In this document: positions 1,618 through 7,742 of the stretch, piece by piece
Layout: every line of letters begins with the position of its first letter
How positions within the stretch are numbered: the stretch's first letter is position 1
From: Magnetococcales bacterium
Lineage (GTDB): Bacteria > Pseudomonadota > Magnetococcia > Magnetococcales > UBA8363
Length of the DNA: 40,450 bases
Direction of reading: 5' to 3'
Assembly (NCBI GenBank): GCA_015228925.1
Contig: JADGCQ010000022.1
Location: forward strand, 1 to 40,450
Notes under the pieces: model-generated
What the model saw: only the letters and a program-made list of their open reading frames with translations
The model's database searches: none
What the model was told of the DNA's origin: nothing
Program-made: the position numbers and the translations under genes

Positions 1618-4600
1618 ATGAGGCACAATCGGTTGTTGATGTTGTTTTTTATCTTTTCGTTTTCTGTGGGTGTTGCTTGCTTTGTCATCCAGGCGCGTGC
1701 GGAGGATGGACGATCCATTCGTGTGGGTGTCTATCAAAATCCTCCTGGGGTGTTTTTGGACGCCGAGGGGGAAATTCGCGGTTTTTATATTGATCTTCTG
1801 AAAGATAGTGCCCAGGAACAGGGGTGGTCACTCCGTTTTGTCCCAGGGAGATGGGAAGATAATCTGCGGCGTCTGGAAAACGGTAGTATCGACCTTTTGA
1901 CTGCGGTGGCCTATACCGAGGCACTGGATCATAAATTTGATTTTACCAAACAAACCATTTTTTCCAATTGGGGACAGGTTTACACCAACGACAGACAGAT
2001 CGATTCGATCCTTCTCCTGAAAAATCGTCTCATCGCGGGCGTCAAGGGCGATGTTTATACCATTGGCCTGGAAAAACTTCTCAAAGCGTTCGACTTTCCG
2101 TATGAGATGCTCTACGTTGGCAGTTATGAAGATGTATTGACGCAAGTTGAAAATGAATATGCCGATGCCGGCATCATCCCCCGCTCGACGGGAATGGTCA
2201 TCGACCATAATTTTGATGTCTTTAAAAGTCCCGTCAATTGCTGTCCTGTTGAAATTCGTTATGCCGTCAAGGGGGGGACTCATGCGGATGTGCTGGCTGC
2301 CCTGGACACCCATCTGCAAAAGCTTAAAGGGGATGAAACTTCCCTGTATTATACGGCACTAAATCAATGGTTTGGCGGTGTCAAGCGGCAGATCTTCCCA
2401 AGATGGCTGCTGTGGTTGCTGGCGGCGGGATCCGGTACTGCGGTTCTACTCTTTATCGGCAACTTGGTGTTGCGCAACCAAGTCAAGGCGCGAACTGTGG
2501 CGTTGGAAAAGGAGATCGTTGTCCGGCAGCAGGCAGAAGCCGATTTGCGTGAAGCGATGCATAATCTGCGGACCATCCAGGTGGCTCCGGGGGTTATTTG
2601 GATGCAGATTCCTGAGGCGAGACTTTTTATCCTGTGCGGTTGTCCGGGTGAGGTCGTCAAACATTTGATGCATCGCGGTCTGATCCAACGGACCACATGC
2701 GATGGGGTGACCTGGGAGACCGGCCCCAATGTCGTTTTACTTTCCGATCTGCTGATTCAAAATGGTGGATTTGCCAATCTGTCCGAATTTCCCATTTTGC
2801 AAATGCTGTATCGTCAGGGGATGATGTTACCCAACCATCCCAACAATACGGGTGTCAAACCCATGCTGATTGGAACCCAATCGCAGGTTCGGGCGCAGTT
2901 GCATTATATCCATCGGGGCAACTATGGCTTGTTGAATAAGGAAGAGCTTTTGGCAACGGGGGTCGATGCGACGACTGCCGACATGATGATGAAGATTAAA
3001 ATGAAATTTGCTTTTGGGGCCATTCGTGAACCCTCCGAGATTGTCGATTCGCTGTTTGTAGATACCAAGCCGGTGGAAATTCGCAATGGTGTCAGCGTTG
3101 CACGCATTGCCCTGAATACGTATCGTTTTTATTATCGGGGAGACTCTGCCGATGTGGACCTTAACCTCCCTGCGGGTGCGGTGTATGAACCCCCCTATCC
3201 TTTGGGTCAGCATCGCATCCCCCGACATCATAATTTTGCGATTCTCCATACCGGCCAAGGGGATGGATGGGATCGCAATCGTCCCAGCATGTCCAGTGTG
3301 ATCCTCTATCATGGGCTGATTTATCTGATCGATGCCGGTCCGGGGGTGTTGCAGGTTTTGACCTCTCTGGGGATCGACATTTCCGAGGTGGAAGGGATTT
3401 TTCATACCCATGCCCATGATGACCATTTTGCGGGGTTACCGGCCCTGATCCGGTCGGATCGGCGTATGCGCTATTATGCAACGCCTATGGTGCGCTCTTC
3501 GGTGGTCAAGAAATTTTCTGCCCTCATGAGTCTTGATGAAGGGCAGTTTTATCAATTTTTCGATGTTTGTGATTTGCGGAGCGAACAGTGGAACGATTGT
3601 GATGGGCTTTTGGTCAAGCCCTGTTTTTCTCCGCATCCGGTGGAAAATACCATGTTTCTTTTCAAGGCCAGGGAAGGAGACGAGGAGAAGACCTACGGCC
3701 ATTGGGCGGACCTATCCAGTTTCAAGGTGTTGGATGGGATGGTGGGGATGGGAGAACACGATATTCCGGCAGAGGTCATGGAGGGGATCAAACGGACATA
3801 CCTGGAAGTGGCCAATCTGAAAAAATTGGATATTGGTGGTGGCATGATCCACGGTGTTGCGGAGGATTTTCGCTGTGACCGGTCAGACAGGCTGATTTTG
3901 GCACATATCGACCGTAAATTGACACCGGAGGAGATGGAAATCGGTTCCGAGGCCGCTTTTGGGGCGGTGGATATTTTAATCCCTGGAGAAAAGAAAATCT
4001 TGATGGATAAAGCCTTTGGCTTTCTCAAGGCTTTCTTTCCGCACATTGCCGATGAAGAAATTATGGCATTGGTTCAGGCACCCATGGTTCACTACAATGC
4101 GGGGACCATCATTCATCGCGCCCAGGACCATTCCGATCATATGGGGATGGTTCTTTCTGGCACTGTGGCGCACCTTGAAGCCCAGAATGGGATCATCAAC
4201 CATTTGTCCATCGGTTCATTTTTGGGGGGGACCGAGTTTCTTGGACTGGAATCCGAAGACTCCTGGACTTTGCGAAGTATTTCCGATTGCATGGTGATCT
4301 CGTTATCCAACGAGAAGGTTTTGGGGTTTCTTGAAAGAAATCATTTAAAGCAAGATTTCATCGATGCCATGCGGAAGATACGCTTCTTGAGAAAGACGCG
4401 ATTGTTGGGCGAAGCGACCACATCATTTACCTTGGACCGGATTGCACGTACCCTGTCTCCAATGGCCTTTGAGGCGGGGGAGGTGTTATCCATCTCGGAT
4501 CATCATTGTCTGTGGATGGTCCGTTCAGGCCGGGTTGCCTTGTTGGGCGATGACGGGCAGTTGGTGGAGGAATTGGGTGTCGGCGGTGTTTTTGGCGAAC

Positions 4601-4758
4601 AAAATTTTTTAAATCCATCCATGCGTGGGTGTACGGCCCGTGCTGTGGAAACGGGTTCCTTGTTTCAGATGGCGTATGAAGGTTTGATCAACATTCCCAT
4701 CGTGCATTGGAAAATGTTGGAGTTATATGATAAACGCTGGCGTTTCAAACAGCAGTAG
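1618..4758 (+). CDS. Membrane receptor-like fusion: SBP_bac_3, TM, MBL fold, two cNMP-binding-like domains
   Basis: A 1046-residue protein. Residues 1-28 are a signal peptide ending ARA. About 30-255 form a periplasmic amino-acid-type solute-binding domain (RVGVYQNPPGVFLDAEGEIRG start; IDLLTAVAYTE). A transmembrane helix spans about 262-285, followed by a coiled-coil linker (286-316). About 320-560 is a region I cannot assign. Next is a metallo-beta-lactamase fold with the THxHxDH motif (H598, H600, D602, H603); H673, an Asp near 698 and H763 are possible further metal ligands. Two cNMP-binding-like domains follow (about 808-905 and 938-1030). The phosphate-cassette GE is GG in the first and GE in the second, so only the second looks able to bind ligand. 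SBP-TM-coiled coil usually leads to a kinase or cyclase; here it leads to a hydrolase fold. The substrate is unknown. The permease gene follows 37 bp downstream. Confidence 0.85.
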   Translation: MRHNRLLMLFFIFSFSVGVACFVIQARAEDGRSIRVGVYQNPPGVFLDAEGEIRGFYIDLLKDSAQEQGWSLRFVPGRWEDNLRRLENGSIDLLTAVAYTEALDHKFDFTKQTIFSNWGQVYTNDRQIDSILLLKNRLIAGVKGDVYTIGLEKLLKAFDFPYEMLYVGSYEDVLTQVENEYADAGIIPRSTGMVIDHNFDVFKSPVNCCPVEIRYAVKGGTHADVLAALDTHLQKLKGDETSLYYTALNQWFGGVKRQIFPRWLLWLLAAGSGTAVLLFIGNLVLRNQVKARTVALEKEIVVRQQAEADLREAMHNLRTIQVAPGVIWMQIPEARLFILCGCPGEVVKHLMHRGLIQRTTCDGVTWETGPNVVLLSDLLIQNGGFANLSEFPILQMLYRQGMMLPNHPNNTGVKPMLIGTQSQVRAQLHYIHRGNYGLLNKEELLATGVDATTADMMMKIKMKFAFGAIREPSEIVDSLFVDTKPVEIRNGVSVARIALNTYRFYYRGDSADVDLNLPAGAVYEPPYPLGQHRIPRHHNFAILHTGQGDGWDRNRPSMSSVILYHGLIYLIDAGPGVLQVLTSLGIDISEVEGIFHTHAHDDHFAGLPALIRSDRRMRYYATPMVRSSVVKKFSALMSLDEGQFYQFFDVCDLRSEQWNDCDGLLVKPCFSPHPVENTMFLFKAREGDEEKTYGHWADLSSFKVLDGMVGMGEHDIPAEVMEGIKRTYLEVANLKKLDIGGGMIHGVAEDFRCDRSDRLILAHIDRKLTPEEMEIGSEAAFGAVDILIPGEKKILMDKAFGFLKAFFPHIADEEIMALVQAPMVHYNAGTIIHRAQDHSDHMGMVLSGTVAHLEAQNGIINHLSIGSFLGGTEFLGLESEDSWTLRSISDCMVISLSNEKVLGFLERNHLKQDFIDAMRKIRFLRKTRLLGEATTSFTLDRIARTLSPMAFEAGEVLSISDHHCLWMVRSGRVALLGDDGQLVEELGVGGVFGEQNFLNPSMRGCTARAVETGSLFQMAYEGLINIPIVHWKMLELYDKRWRFKQQ

Positions 4759-4795: not shown

Positions 4796-5671
4796 ATGGA
4801 CATGGCACCCGAACCACCGCAGACTGACCTTGAAGAACGGGTTTATTCCCCGGAATCCCAATTATTACACCCCTTGTATTTTTTTCGGACGGCCCTGCGG
4901 GACATGGCCAACTCCAGAAATTTGGCATGGCGTCTTTTTTGGCGTGATATTCATCAACGTTATCGGCAATCGGTATTTGGTTTTCTTTGGGTATTGATCC
5001 CCCCCGTGGTCACGACGGCCATCTTTGTCGTGTTGAACAACAGTGCCATTTTGAACCTTGGTAAAACGGATATCCCCTATCCGGTTTACGTCATGCTTGG
5101 GACGTTGTTGTGGCAGATTTTTACCGAAAGTGTCCAGGCCCCTTTGACCTTGTTTGAATCGTGCGTCCCGATCATGATCAAGATCAACATGCCACGGGAA
5201 GCACCCATTTTGGCGGCGATGGGACAGGTTTTGTTCTTGGCGGTGCTGCAACTCCTGATAGCGTTCGCCACGATGATCTATTTTGGTGTCGTATGGCATT
5301 GGACCATCCTGTTGGTCCCTTTTTTGATTTTGGTATTGATTCTTATGGGGACCGCCATCGGACTGTTTTTGGTTCCCATCGGTGCTCTGTACAAGGATAT
5401 CAAGGAGGGGATGACCGTTTTATTGCGTTTGGCATTTTTTGTGACCCCCATTGTGTATCCGCCACCGCAAAGTTGGCCCTATTCTTTGATTGTCAGCCTC
5501 AATCCGGTCACCTCGGTTCTTCAGTCCATCCGGGATGTTTTGGCCAAGGGTCACATGTCGGATCCTCAAGGTTTCATCATGGTTTCCGTCGTGGTTGTGG
5601 TGGTCTTTCTTTTGGCGTTGATCTATTACCGATTGGCAATTCCCGTCATTTTGGAACGGTTGGGGGCATGA
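4796..5671 (+). CDS. ABC-2 type polysaccharide export permease
   Basis: A 291-residue integral membrane protein of the Wzm/KpsM/TagG type, which carries lipid-linked polysaccharide across the inner membrane with a separate ATPase. The cytosolic N-terminus (1-50) is followed by the family signature RNLAWRLFWRDIHQRYRQSVFGFLWVLIPP (about 41-70; amphipathic helix and first membrane segment). About five further hydrophobic segments follow, with FFVTPIVYPPPQ and SLNPVTSVLQSIRDVL near the C-terminus, both typical. The start is not certain: ATGs occur at 4796 and 4802, and the ribosome site is weak. No ATP-binding partner gene is adjacent in the window, so it must be elsewhere. The downstream deacetylase-glycosyltransferase gene supports a surface-polysaccharide role. 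Confidence 0.88.
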   Translation: MDMAPEPPQTDLEERVYSPESQLLHPLYFFRTALRDMANSRNLAWRLFWRDIHQRYRQSVFGFLWVLIPPVVTTAIFVVLNNSAILNLGKTDIPYPVYVMLGTLLWQIFTESVQAPLTLFESCVPIMIKINMPREAPILAAMGQVLFLAVLQLLIAFATMIYFGVVWHWTILLVPFLILVLILMGTAIGLFLVPIGALYKDIKEGMTVLLRLAFFVTPIVYPPPQSWPYSLIVSLNPVTSVLQSIRDVLAKGHMSDPQGFIMVSVVVVVVFLLALIYYRLAIPVILERLGA

Positions 5672-5693: not shown

Positions 5694-7742
5694 ATGACAC
5701 CTTTTGGACCTTTGGCGATTACCGCTGATAATTATGGCCTGACGGATGGAATCAACCAAGGGATTGCCGGTTTGGCGCGGACGCGCGCCATTACCGGTGT
5801 GAGTATCATGTGTCATCCGGCGGCCAGGTTGGATCATGTTGCGGATTTGAAACATTCGGGCGTATTGACGGGCGTTCATCTGGTCATGGTGGAGGAGCGG
5901 CCTATTTTGGCGGACGATCCTGGCCTGAGGCCGCTCTTGGACCGCAAGGGGTGTTTTCCCGACAGTTGGCAGCGGTTGTGCCTCATGGTTTTGCTGAAAC
6001 CTTGGGTTTTGAAGGGGTTGCGGCGGGAGGTGGAGGCGCAGATCAATCGGTTTGTTGAGCTGGGACTCAGCCTTGATTTTATCAACAGTCACCAGCATGT
6101 CCATTTATTTCCACCGGTCTGGATGGCATTGCGTCCTTTGTTGGAGTCGTACAAGGTTCCCATCCGTGGGACGGCGCAGTGGGATTGGCAGGGTTGGTCG
6201 TTTCAAGGGTTGCTCCATGCCGCCTCTTGGTTGAGTTGGCATTGGGGCCCCCGGATGAAGAACAGTCTTTCTCTCAAACCCATCGGATTGAATGTTTCGG
6301 GTCGTTTTTCCATGGCGGCGACTCAGGAACTTTTGGCGGATGTGCATGGGTTTTCCCGCTGGGAGGTGCCGGAGTTTGTGGTTCATCCGGGGGTGGAGGA
6401 TCGGCAGGCGCGGGATCATTATATCCACTGGGGGTATCGTTGGGATCAGGAACGGACCACACTGGCCTCGGAAGATTTCCAGACCTTTTTGGAGCAAAGT
6501 GGTTGCGATTTGCTGGGTGCCTCCATGAAAATCCGGGAACGGGTGGCGGAGGCGACGACTTTTTCAACGCGCTTGAAAGCGGCTGAGGTGGTGTTGGCGG
6601 TGGCTTGGCCGCAAAACTGGGAACAGATGGTTTTATTTTCTAAGCTGAGTGATGGATTGGCCCGCAAGGGGGTGGGGCCGCGGATCATTCTGCCGGATCT
6701 TTTGTTTGGTTTGGAACGGCATCAATTTGAACATTATCGTGGATTTTCATGGGGTCGGCGTTGGATTGATCTGTTGTTTTGGCTGCGGACTTTGGATCAA
6801 CGTATCGATAATCCCGAGGCGTTGTTGCATTGGGTGTTGCCTTCACCGGCATGGGCTTGGCTGGCGGGTTTGACGGGCATTCCAGGCGAAAGGATAATCT
6901 TGCATTACAGTGGCCGATCCTATGGATGGAACAAGGCCAACCTGATGGCATGGATGGCCGATCCCTGGTTGGTTGGACCGACTATGATCTCCAACCTTTC
7001 GGTTTTATCGCGTTTCGCCAAGCGTCTTAAAGTTTCCCATCTGACGATGGATGCCCATTCCGCGCAACTTCTGACCCAGATCGGGTGCGCACGGGTGTCT
7101 ACGTGTCCAGGGCTTGTGGCCTTACCGGGCCATGGGCAGGATAAGTCGATGGGGAAACCATCGGAGTTTCCAGATCCGTTATCGATCACGGTGGGTTTTT
7201 ATGGTTTGGGTTCTCCGGCAGAGGGGGTGGTCGATCTTTTGCGTGCTGTGGCACTGGCATTGCCGGAAAATCCCAGGTTACGGCTGCTCTTGGCGGTGGG
7301 GGCGAGACAACGCCTGGGGAAGATTCAGCGGATGGTGATGGGATTGCATTTGGATGATCGGGTGGAGATGGTTGGGGTTGAAGATGAAGAGCGGTTGCTG
7401 GCGCGGGTGGATGCGATGGCGTTACCCTATCGGAGCGAGGTGGTGGCACCGCTCTATCCTAGGATGTTATTGGCCACTTCTGCTGCGGGATGCCCTGTGA
7501 TTACGACGGCGATTCCCGCCTGGGAACATTTGTTCAACTTGACCTCATCCCGATTGGAGGTGATTTCACCGGGGGATGTCCCGGCGTTGAAACGGGTACT
7601 GGTGACCTTGGGGAGTCGGGTCAGTCGTCCCTTCGAGGGGGGGGCGGCGTTGAAATTGTCGGTGGGGCATCCGGGGATGGAGGCGGTATCGGCACTACAC
7701 CATCGCATGAGCGGTGGGCGGTTTGTCTCTGGCCAGTGTTGA
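5694..7742 (+). CDS. Fusion of YdjC/ChbG-type deacetylase and GT-B glycosyltransferase
   Basis: A 682-residue cytosolic protein with two enzyme-like halves. Residues about 5-270 match the YdjC/ChbG/HpnK family of metal-dependent carbohydrate deacetylases: ITADNYGLT (Asp12), GVHLV (His62) and NSHQHVHLFP (His133, 135, 137), the positions of the metal ligands. The usual ADD motif is ADN, with Asn13 in place of the second Asp; loss of a catalytic base is possible. Residues about 300-670 look like a glycosyltransferase family 4-type GT-B enzyme: a Rossmann-like N-half, then VGFYGLGSPAEGVVDLLRA, a middle strand-helix region, and PLYPRMLLATSAAGCPVITT where the donor-binding segment lies. It starts 22 bp after the permease stop. 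The two probably act on one surface glycan, but substrates cannot be read from sequence. Confidence 0.8.
   Translation: MTPFGPLAITADNYGLTDGINQGIAGLARTRAITGVSIMCHPAARLDHVADLKHSGVLTGVHLVMVEERPILADDPGLRPLLDRKGCFPDSWQRLCLMVLLKPWVLKGLRREVEAQINRFVELGLSLDFINSHQHVHLFPPVWMALRPLLESYKVPIRGTAQWDWQGWSFQGLLHAASWLSWHWGPRMKNSLSLKPIGLNVSGRFSMAATQELLADVHGFSRWEVPEFVVHPGVEDRQARDHYIHWGYRWDQERTTLASEDFQTFLEQSGCDLLGASMKIRERVAEATTFSTRLKAAEVVLAVAWPQNWEQMVLFSKLSDGLARKGVGPRIILPDLLFGLERHQFEHYRGFSWGRRWIDLLFWLRTLDQRIDNPEALLHWVLPSPAWAWLAGLTGIPGERIILHYSGRSYGWNKANLMAWMADPWLVGPTMISNLSVLSRFAKRLKVSHLTMDAHSAQLLTQIGCARVSTCPGLVALPGHGQDKSMGKPSEFPDPLSITVGFYGLGSPAEGVVDLLRAVALALPENPRLRLLLAVGARQRLGKIQRMVMGLHLDDRVEMVGVEDEERLLARVDAMALPYRSEVVAPLYPRMLLATSAAGCPVITTAIPAWEHLFNLTSSRLEVISPGDVPALKRVLVTLGSRVSRPFEGGAALKLSVGHPGMEAVSALHHRMSGGRFVSGQC

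Follow-up and report, generated by a model that had tools for sequence, protein, structure and literature searches.

A transmembrane receptor-hydrolase of the Magnetococcales is one member of an undescribed, widespread family of output modules with a metallo-beta-lactamase fold and tandem cNMP-type domains

In Dictyostelium, GbpA and GbpB are class IIb phosphodiesterases in which a catalytic metallo-beta-lactamase-fold (MBL) domain is followed by two activating cNMP domains (PMC11988041). Cyclic mononucleotides are the substrates of the phosphodiesterases Apyc1 and YhfI (PMC9117128). Atypical class-II phosphodiesterases carry a [T/S]HxHxDH signature and are assigned to PF12706, and the X residues of their motif tend to be small or hydrophobic (PMC9293780). 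Sensor kinases with an SBP_bac_3 domain (e.g. the sensor protein of PDB 3h7m) combine a signal peptide, this domain, a transmembrane (TM) helix and a coiled coil with a kinase output. To our knowledge, few one-component receptors remove rather than make a messenger.

Here we analyzed a gene in a window of 40,450 nucleotides (the whole stretch of DNA under study) from a Magnetococcales bacterium, an organism of magnetotactic type. The encoded receptor shares the input half of the SBP_bac_3 sensor kinases but ends in a hydrolase module and has no kinase. Its back half has the order MBL-cNMP-cNMP in common with GbpA and GbpB, a likeness at the level of domain order (PMC11988041), and this order has therefore already been characterized in a eukaryote. 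GbpA and GbpB are soluble, cGMP/cAMP-activated and without reported SBP/TM, receiver or hemerythrin input, whereas the receptor family has degenerate cassettes and a conserved region of ~220 residues ahead of the MBL domain. The original prediction, made from the letters of the DNA, knew of no described receptor with this order; this agrees with the open-access literature for the TM receptor form, for which none was found there, but not for the MBL-cNMP-cNMP part, which is known from GbpA/GbpB (PMC11988041). In the open-access literature neither the TM receptor, nor the hemerythrin and receiver forms, nor the region of residues 322-540 was found, which is weak evidence of novelty.

Table 1. 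Features of the receptor gene and of the two genes downstream (positions in the window).
Feature	Position	Strand	Basis
Whole gene	1618..4758	+	intact ORF, 1046 aa, ATG 1618 to stop 4758
Signal peptide, about residues 1-28	1618..1701	+	hydropathy maximum residues 6-24 (peak ~4-28), ARA-like end
Periplasmic SBP_bac_3 domain, residues 34-253	1717..2376	+	Pfam PF00497, E 6.7e-15
TM helix, about residues 262-285	2401..2472	+	hydropathy
Coiled-coil/signal helix linking input and core, about residues 286-316	2473..2565	+	heptad-like sequence
Conserved region, residues 322-540	2581..3237	+	invariant residues, no family match; probably forms a single unit together with the MBL fold
MBL-fold hydrolase domain, residues 541-790	3238..3987	+	Pfam PF12706/PF00753 in 59/59 members
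Metal motif THAHDDH, residues 597-603 (H598, H600, D602, H603)	3406..3426	+	ligands 167/167; D601 also 167/167
Metal ligand H673	3634..3636	+	167/167
Bridging metal ligand D698	3709..3711	+	167/167
Family-specific motif KKxDxGGGxIHG, residues 735-746	3820..3855	+	K735, K736, D738, H745 167/167
Metal ligand H763	3904..3906	+	167/167
cNMP-type domain 1, residues 824-908, degenerate phosphate cassette	4087..4341	+	Pfam PF00027
cNMP-type domain 2, about residues 945-1022	4450..4683	+	second PF00027 stretch
Phosphate-cassette-like stretch FGEQNFLNPSMRGCTARA in cNMP domain 2	4591..4644	+	
ABC-2-permease-like ORF directly 3' of the receptor	4796-5671	+	no Pfam match at E<=0.1; synteny in six congeners
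YdjC-like deacetylase domain fused to a glycosyltransferase	5694-7742	+	Pfam

The intact reading frame, Pfam matches and hydropathy confirm the predicted single receptor chain of signal peptide, SBP_bac_3 domain, TM helix, coiled coil, MBL fold and two cNMP-type domains (Table 1). In Pfam, Lactamase_B_2 matched residues 570-641 (E 7.4e-9; about 556-641 together with Lactamase_B), and cNMP_binding matched the receptor protein over two stretches (E 1.9e-21). It had been considered that separate genes were merged by an assembly join or a frameshift, and the source assembly is indeed of metagenome type (219 contigs). However, homologues of the same length and domain order were present in 7/7 other genomes of the genus, the named congeners being Magnetococcales MAGs (core identity 76-99%), and this excludes either artefact. 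With the receptor itself included, the fusion occurs in 8/8 genomes of the genus; another 9 genomes that have it belong to a second family of the order, and the 17 SBP-fused members form one clade in the tree (support 0.98), nested among receiver-fused members. A merger of separate genes is ruled out for all practical purposes.

The SBP_bac_3 domain passes the Pfam gathering score (55.4 bits, cut-off 26.4) and lies in an exported position, as judged from the hydropathy of the signal peptide and the TM helix. Across the 17 members, 27 of its polar, aromatic or cysteine residues are invariant. Amino-acid binders of the LAO/HisJ type hold the ligand carboxylate with an Arg and the amino group with an Asp. 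When these canonical sites were aligned by eye, the Arg position was Leu103 in the window protein and in L035 (Arg in 15/17 members), and the Asp position (188) was Pro or Ser in 17/17. These replacements suggest that the ligand is probably not a standard alpha-amino acid.

The receptor-hydrolase is a real and conserved protein and one member of a larger family: residues ~320-1046 are a shared output module, widespread and previously undescribed. Genomes of 100 relatives, ~400 genomes of the phylum, 248 of one order and 78 of one class were searched, from which a set of 167 distinct members was extracted. The core reaches all Magnetococcales genomes examined (48/48), about 29% of the sampled genomes of one large Pseudomonadota order (71/248) and 6/78 genomes of one class. 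A viral contig scan and tblastn of plasmids revealed no relative. A second copy of residues 296-1044 (52% identity) is present in the window's own genome, where it follows a receiver domain. The architectures, confirmed by Pfam for example members, are core with a C-terminal hemerythrin (74/167), core alone (42/167, a class that includes a few short N-terminal extensions and some long N-termini from frame read-through), receiver-core (33/167), SBP-core with periplasmic SBP and TM (17/167) and receiver-core-hemerythrin (1/167); with the latter, the totals are 34 receivers and 75 bacteriohemerythrins. Receiver-type members meet the core at the same joint as SBP-type members. Inputs are therefore swapped at a fixed N-terminal joint or appended C-terminally. 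The added domains keep their functional residues, the receiver Asp pattern being detected in 32/34 receivers and the conserved hemerythrin columns of metal-ligand type (H, H, E, H, H, H, D) in 71-75 of 75. None of the family members has a further output domain that could be recognised. Signalling proteins with hemerythrin or receiver domains are like the sister members in their inputs, and no paper describing a fusion of either domain to this core was found in the open-access literature.

Among the remaining N-termini, three core members (L067, L068 and L069) have unassigned extensions of 135-150 residues that may be degenerate receiver domains. In L166/L203 (G152), the ORF L203:3443-5893 consists of the core with a short hydrophobic N-terminus and a TM helix but no SBP domain, possibly a membrane-anchored form without sensor.

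The original prediction had also left the region before the MBL fold unassigned and possibly new, and the searches agree: residues 322-540 have no match in Pfam, NCBIfam or PDB (best E 0.69 when this region alone was used in a PDB profile search). K348, E367, Q381, N387, H407, R433 and K461 are invariant in 167/167 members. A degenerate second MBL domain was tried as an explanation and rejected (hhalign probability below 1%), and apart from fragments the region was not seen without the MBL domain in the match tables. Since it was found apart from the MBL domain in fragments only, is not an MBL duplicate and resembles nothing in PDB or Pfam, it is best viewed as part of one catalytic unit that it probably forms with the MBL domain.

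The MBL motif THxHxDH, predicted to be intact, is indeed complete, and the seven metal ligands H598, H600, D602, H603, H673, D698 and H763 are the same in 167/167 members, and so are D601, H695, K735, K736, D738, H745 and D754. With T or S at position 597 in 167/167, every member contains [T/S]HxHxDH and the full ligand set. The first X is mostly A, S, G or C; the second is Asp in 167/167, which departs from the small or hydrophobic residues typical of atypical class-II phosphodiesterases. A profile of 59 members found Apyc1 as first PDB match (E 6.6e-7), closely followed by arylsulfatase 8gyg (E 7.1e-7) and then by enzymes of the RNase Z type; B3 lactamases also score close behind Apyc1. AlphaFold2 prediction of the full chain together with seven close homologues was unusable (mean pLDDT 35.5). 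For the core alone (mean pLDDT 43.2) only residues ~560-696 were useful, and a fold search with this low-confidence part ranked Apyc1 first, followed by similar MBL proteins. The receptor did not pass the curated cut-offs of the Apyc1 family PF23023 (18.7 bits, Pfam gathering cut-off 50), of NF041851, the NCBIfam model of a cyclic nucleotide-degrading phosphodiesterase (13.4 bits, cut-off 400), or of RNase Z TIGR02651 (40.6 bits, cut-off 293), the best NCBIfam match, with which the MBL subtype is shared over residues 553-613. Motif and Pfam assignment agree with atypical class-II phosphodiesterases, yet the second X is Asp and the cut-offs are missed, so the fold supports a phosphodiesterase but does not fix the substrate. 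Compared with Apyc1, YhfI, CpdA and Rv1339, the family has the same MBL fold, [T/S]HxHxDH and PF12706. These enzymes are, however, single-domain proteins of ~250 aa, whereas the receptor core adds the large N-terminal region and tandem cNMP folds, and the family is further set apart by KKxDxGGGxIHG, the sensor inputs and the invariant Asp as second X.

For the cNMP-type domains, a broken first and an apparently intact second phosphate cassette had been predicted. In the window protein both hold: Glu and Arg of the cassette are absent from domain 1, and FGEQNFLNPSMRGCTARA of domain 2 looks intact. As a family trait the intact second cassette fails, since its Arg is T or K in several relatives at 76-79% identity, and among the 167 members the canonical Arg context occurs only in the window protein, L006/L035 and L012. 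A pattern search flags an Arg at cassette positions 11-13 in 30/167 second domains and in 10/167 of the first, for the most part outside the canonical context. The cassette Gly-Glu is retained in 156/167 second and 104/167 first domains. Judged from these residues, classic cAMP binding is unlikely as a family trait, and the domains may possibly bind some other ligand. Right after domain 2, a motif IPIVHWKxxE (window about 4693-4737) is kept in most members.

In another lineage the core lies directly downstream (<100 bp) of a TPR-CHAT gene in 18 of the 25 genomes with both, as seen from the coordinates. A CHASE2-class III cyclase precedes TPR-CHAT and core in 6/6 loci examined (L169, L170, L171, L177, L183 and L201); the trio is seen in these six loci, and the other 12 of the 18 genomes represent CHAT-core adjacency by coordinates. 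The two genera with this arrangement carry cores from different clades of the tree, which favours a functional link. CHASE2-cyclase, TPR-CHAT protease and MBL-cNMP core look like a complete messenger circuit, possibly related to stress or defence. This trio belongs to the other lineage and does not adjoin SBP-fused members. Class III cyclases are present in 244/248 genomes of that order, and because of this saturation their genome-level co-occurrence with the core is uninformative. The window's own genome encodes 6 of them.

Phosphodiesterase action is the leading hypothesis, and we give it about an even chance: the protein would be a single-chain TM receptor-hydrolase whose module most likely acts by hydrolysing a cyclic mononucleotide or a phosphodiester messenger closely related to one. 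The sequences show the domain layout, the intact frame, the swappable inputs, the invariant metal site, the spread of the family and the loss of canonical cassettes; metal binding, catalysis, substrate, direction of regulation and the SBP ligand are inferred. A small solute would be bound by the periplasmic SBP_bac_3 domain, and the signal would pass via one TM helix and the coiled coil to the cytosolic module, composed of the new conserved region, the MBL-fold hydrolase and the pair of cNMP-fold domains. The reaction would follow a two-metal class-II-type mechanism, and the cNMP-fold domains would serve less as classic cAMP sensors than as a frame for dimerisation or allostery. In relatives the module, a general output unit, may respond to phosphorylation through the receiver or to O2/iron through hemerythrin. 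This reading is supported by the swappable inputs, the retained sensor residues, the invariant ligands, the first rank of Apyc1, the GbpA/GbpB layout, the cyclase trio and the six cyclases of the genome itself. Against it count that the MBL fold leaves the substrate open, with RNase Z, arylsulfatase and B3 lactamases scoring near Apyc1, as well as the Asp at the second X, the low NF041851 score, the location of the trio in another lineage, the near universal cyclases and the poor models. The predicted ligand-gated hydrolase tied to a cyclic nucleotide is plausible, with Apyc1 as best structural relative and cyclase genes next to the core in one lineage, but its tuning by nucleotide binding to the second cNMP domain is unsupported as a conserved property. 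The same layout might instead act on a substrate other than a cyclic mononucleotide, be it RNA, as in enzymes like RNase Z/J, a cyclic dinucleotide, an ester of sulfate or carboxylate, or a novel messenger, with the new N-terminal region and KKxDxGGGxIHG shaping the pocket. We consider this a serious, if less probable, alternative. RNase Z as best NCBIfam match, the Apyc1-like score of arylsulfatase and the invariant residues of the N-region together with the additional K/H/D residues, for which no counterpart was found in known phosphodiesterases, speak for it, but the RNase Z score is far under its cut-off, Apyc1 heads the list in the sequence-profile search as well as in the fold search, and the core gene is linked to a cyclase in one lineage.

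The MBL domain could also be a non-catalytic metal sensor, like the flavodiiron-type ODP oxygen sensors, with the output given by the cNMP domains or a partner. Such a role would fit the 75 members fused to hemerythrin, which binds O2 at a di-iron site, and the probably microaerophilic-type life of many hosts. Flavodiiron/ODP-type MBL domains, however, have the iron motif HxExD, whereas here HxHxDH and the entire hydrolase ligand set are invariant and no member has another recognisable output domain, which makes such a sensor unlikely. Nearly as doubtful is direct switching of the hydrolase by a cyclic nucleotide on the cNMP domains, i.e. a feedback-regulated phosphodiesterase as in GbpA/GbpB. 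The shared domain order, the widely kept Gly-Glu and the canonical-looking second cassette of the window protein agree with this idea, but the phosphate-coordinating Arg has its canonical context only in the window protein and its two nearest matches and gives way to T or K in relatives as close as 76-79% identity. More speculatively, and rather improbably as a whole, the ~470-residue unit of the 322-540 region and the MBL domain might be a new enzyme class that destroys a novel second messenger, controlled through domain swapping by periplasmic solutes, phosphorelays or O2, and in one lineage working in a circuit with CHASE2 cyclase and CHAT protease. Should the module prove to be a phosphodiesterase, it would be a bacterial counterpart of the GbpA/GbpB layout and a widespread output domain alongside GGDEF, EAL, HD-GYP and class III cyclases.

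Around the SBP-fused members no common partner gene was found, in a neighbour clustering that was noisy due to overlapping spurious ORFs; the neighbours in the second family differ from those in the congeners. At six loci in the genus, the ABC-permease-like gene and then the YdjC/glycosyltransferase fusion lie downstream of the receptor.
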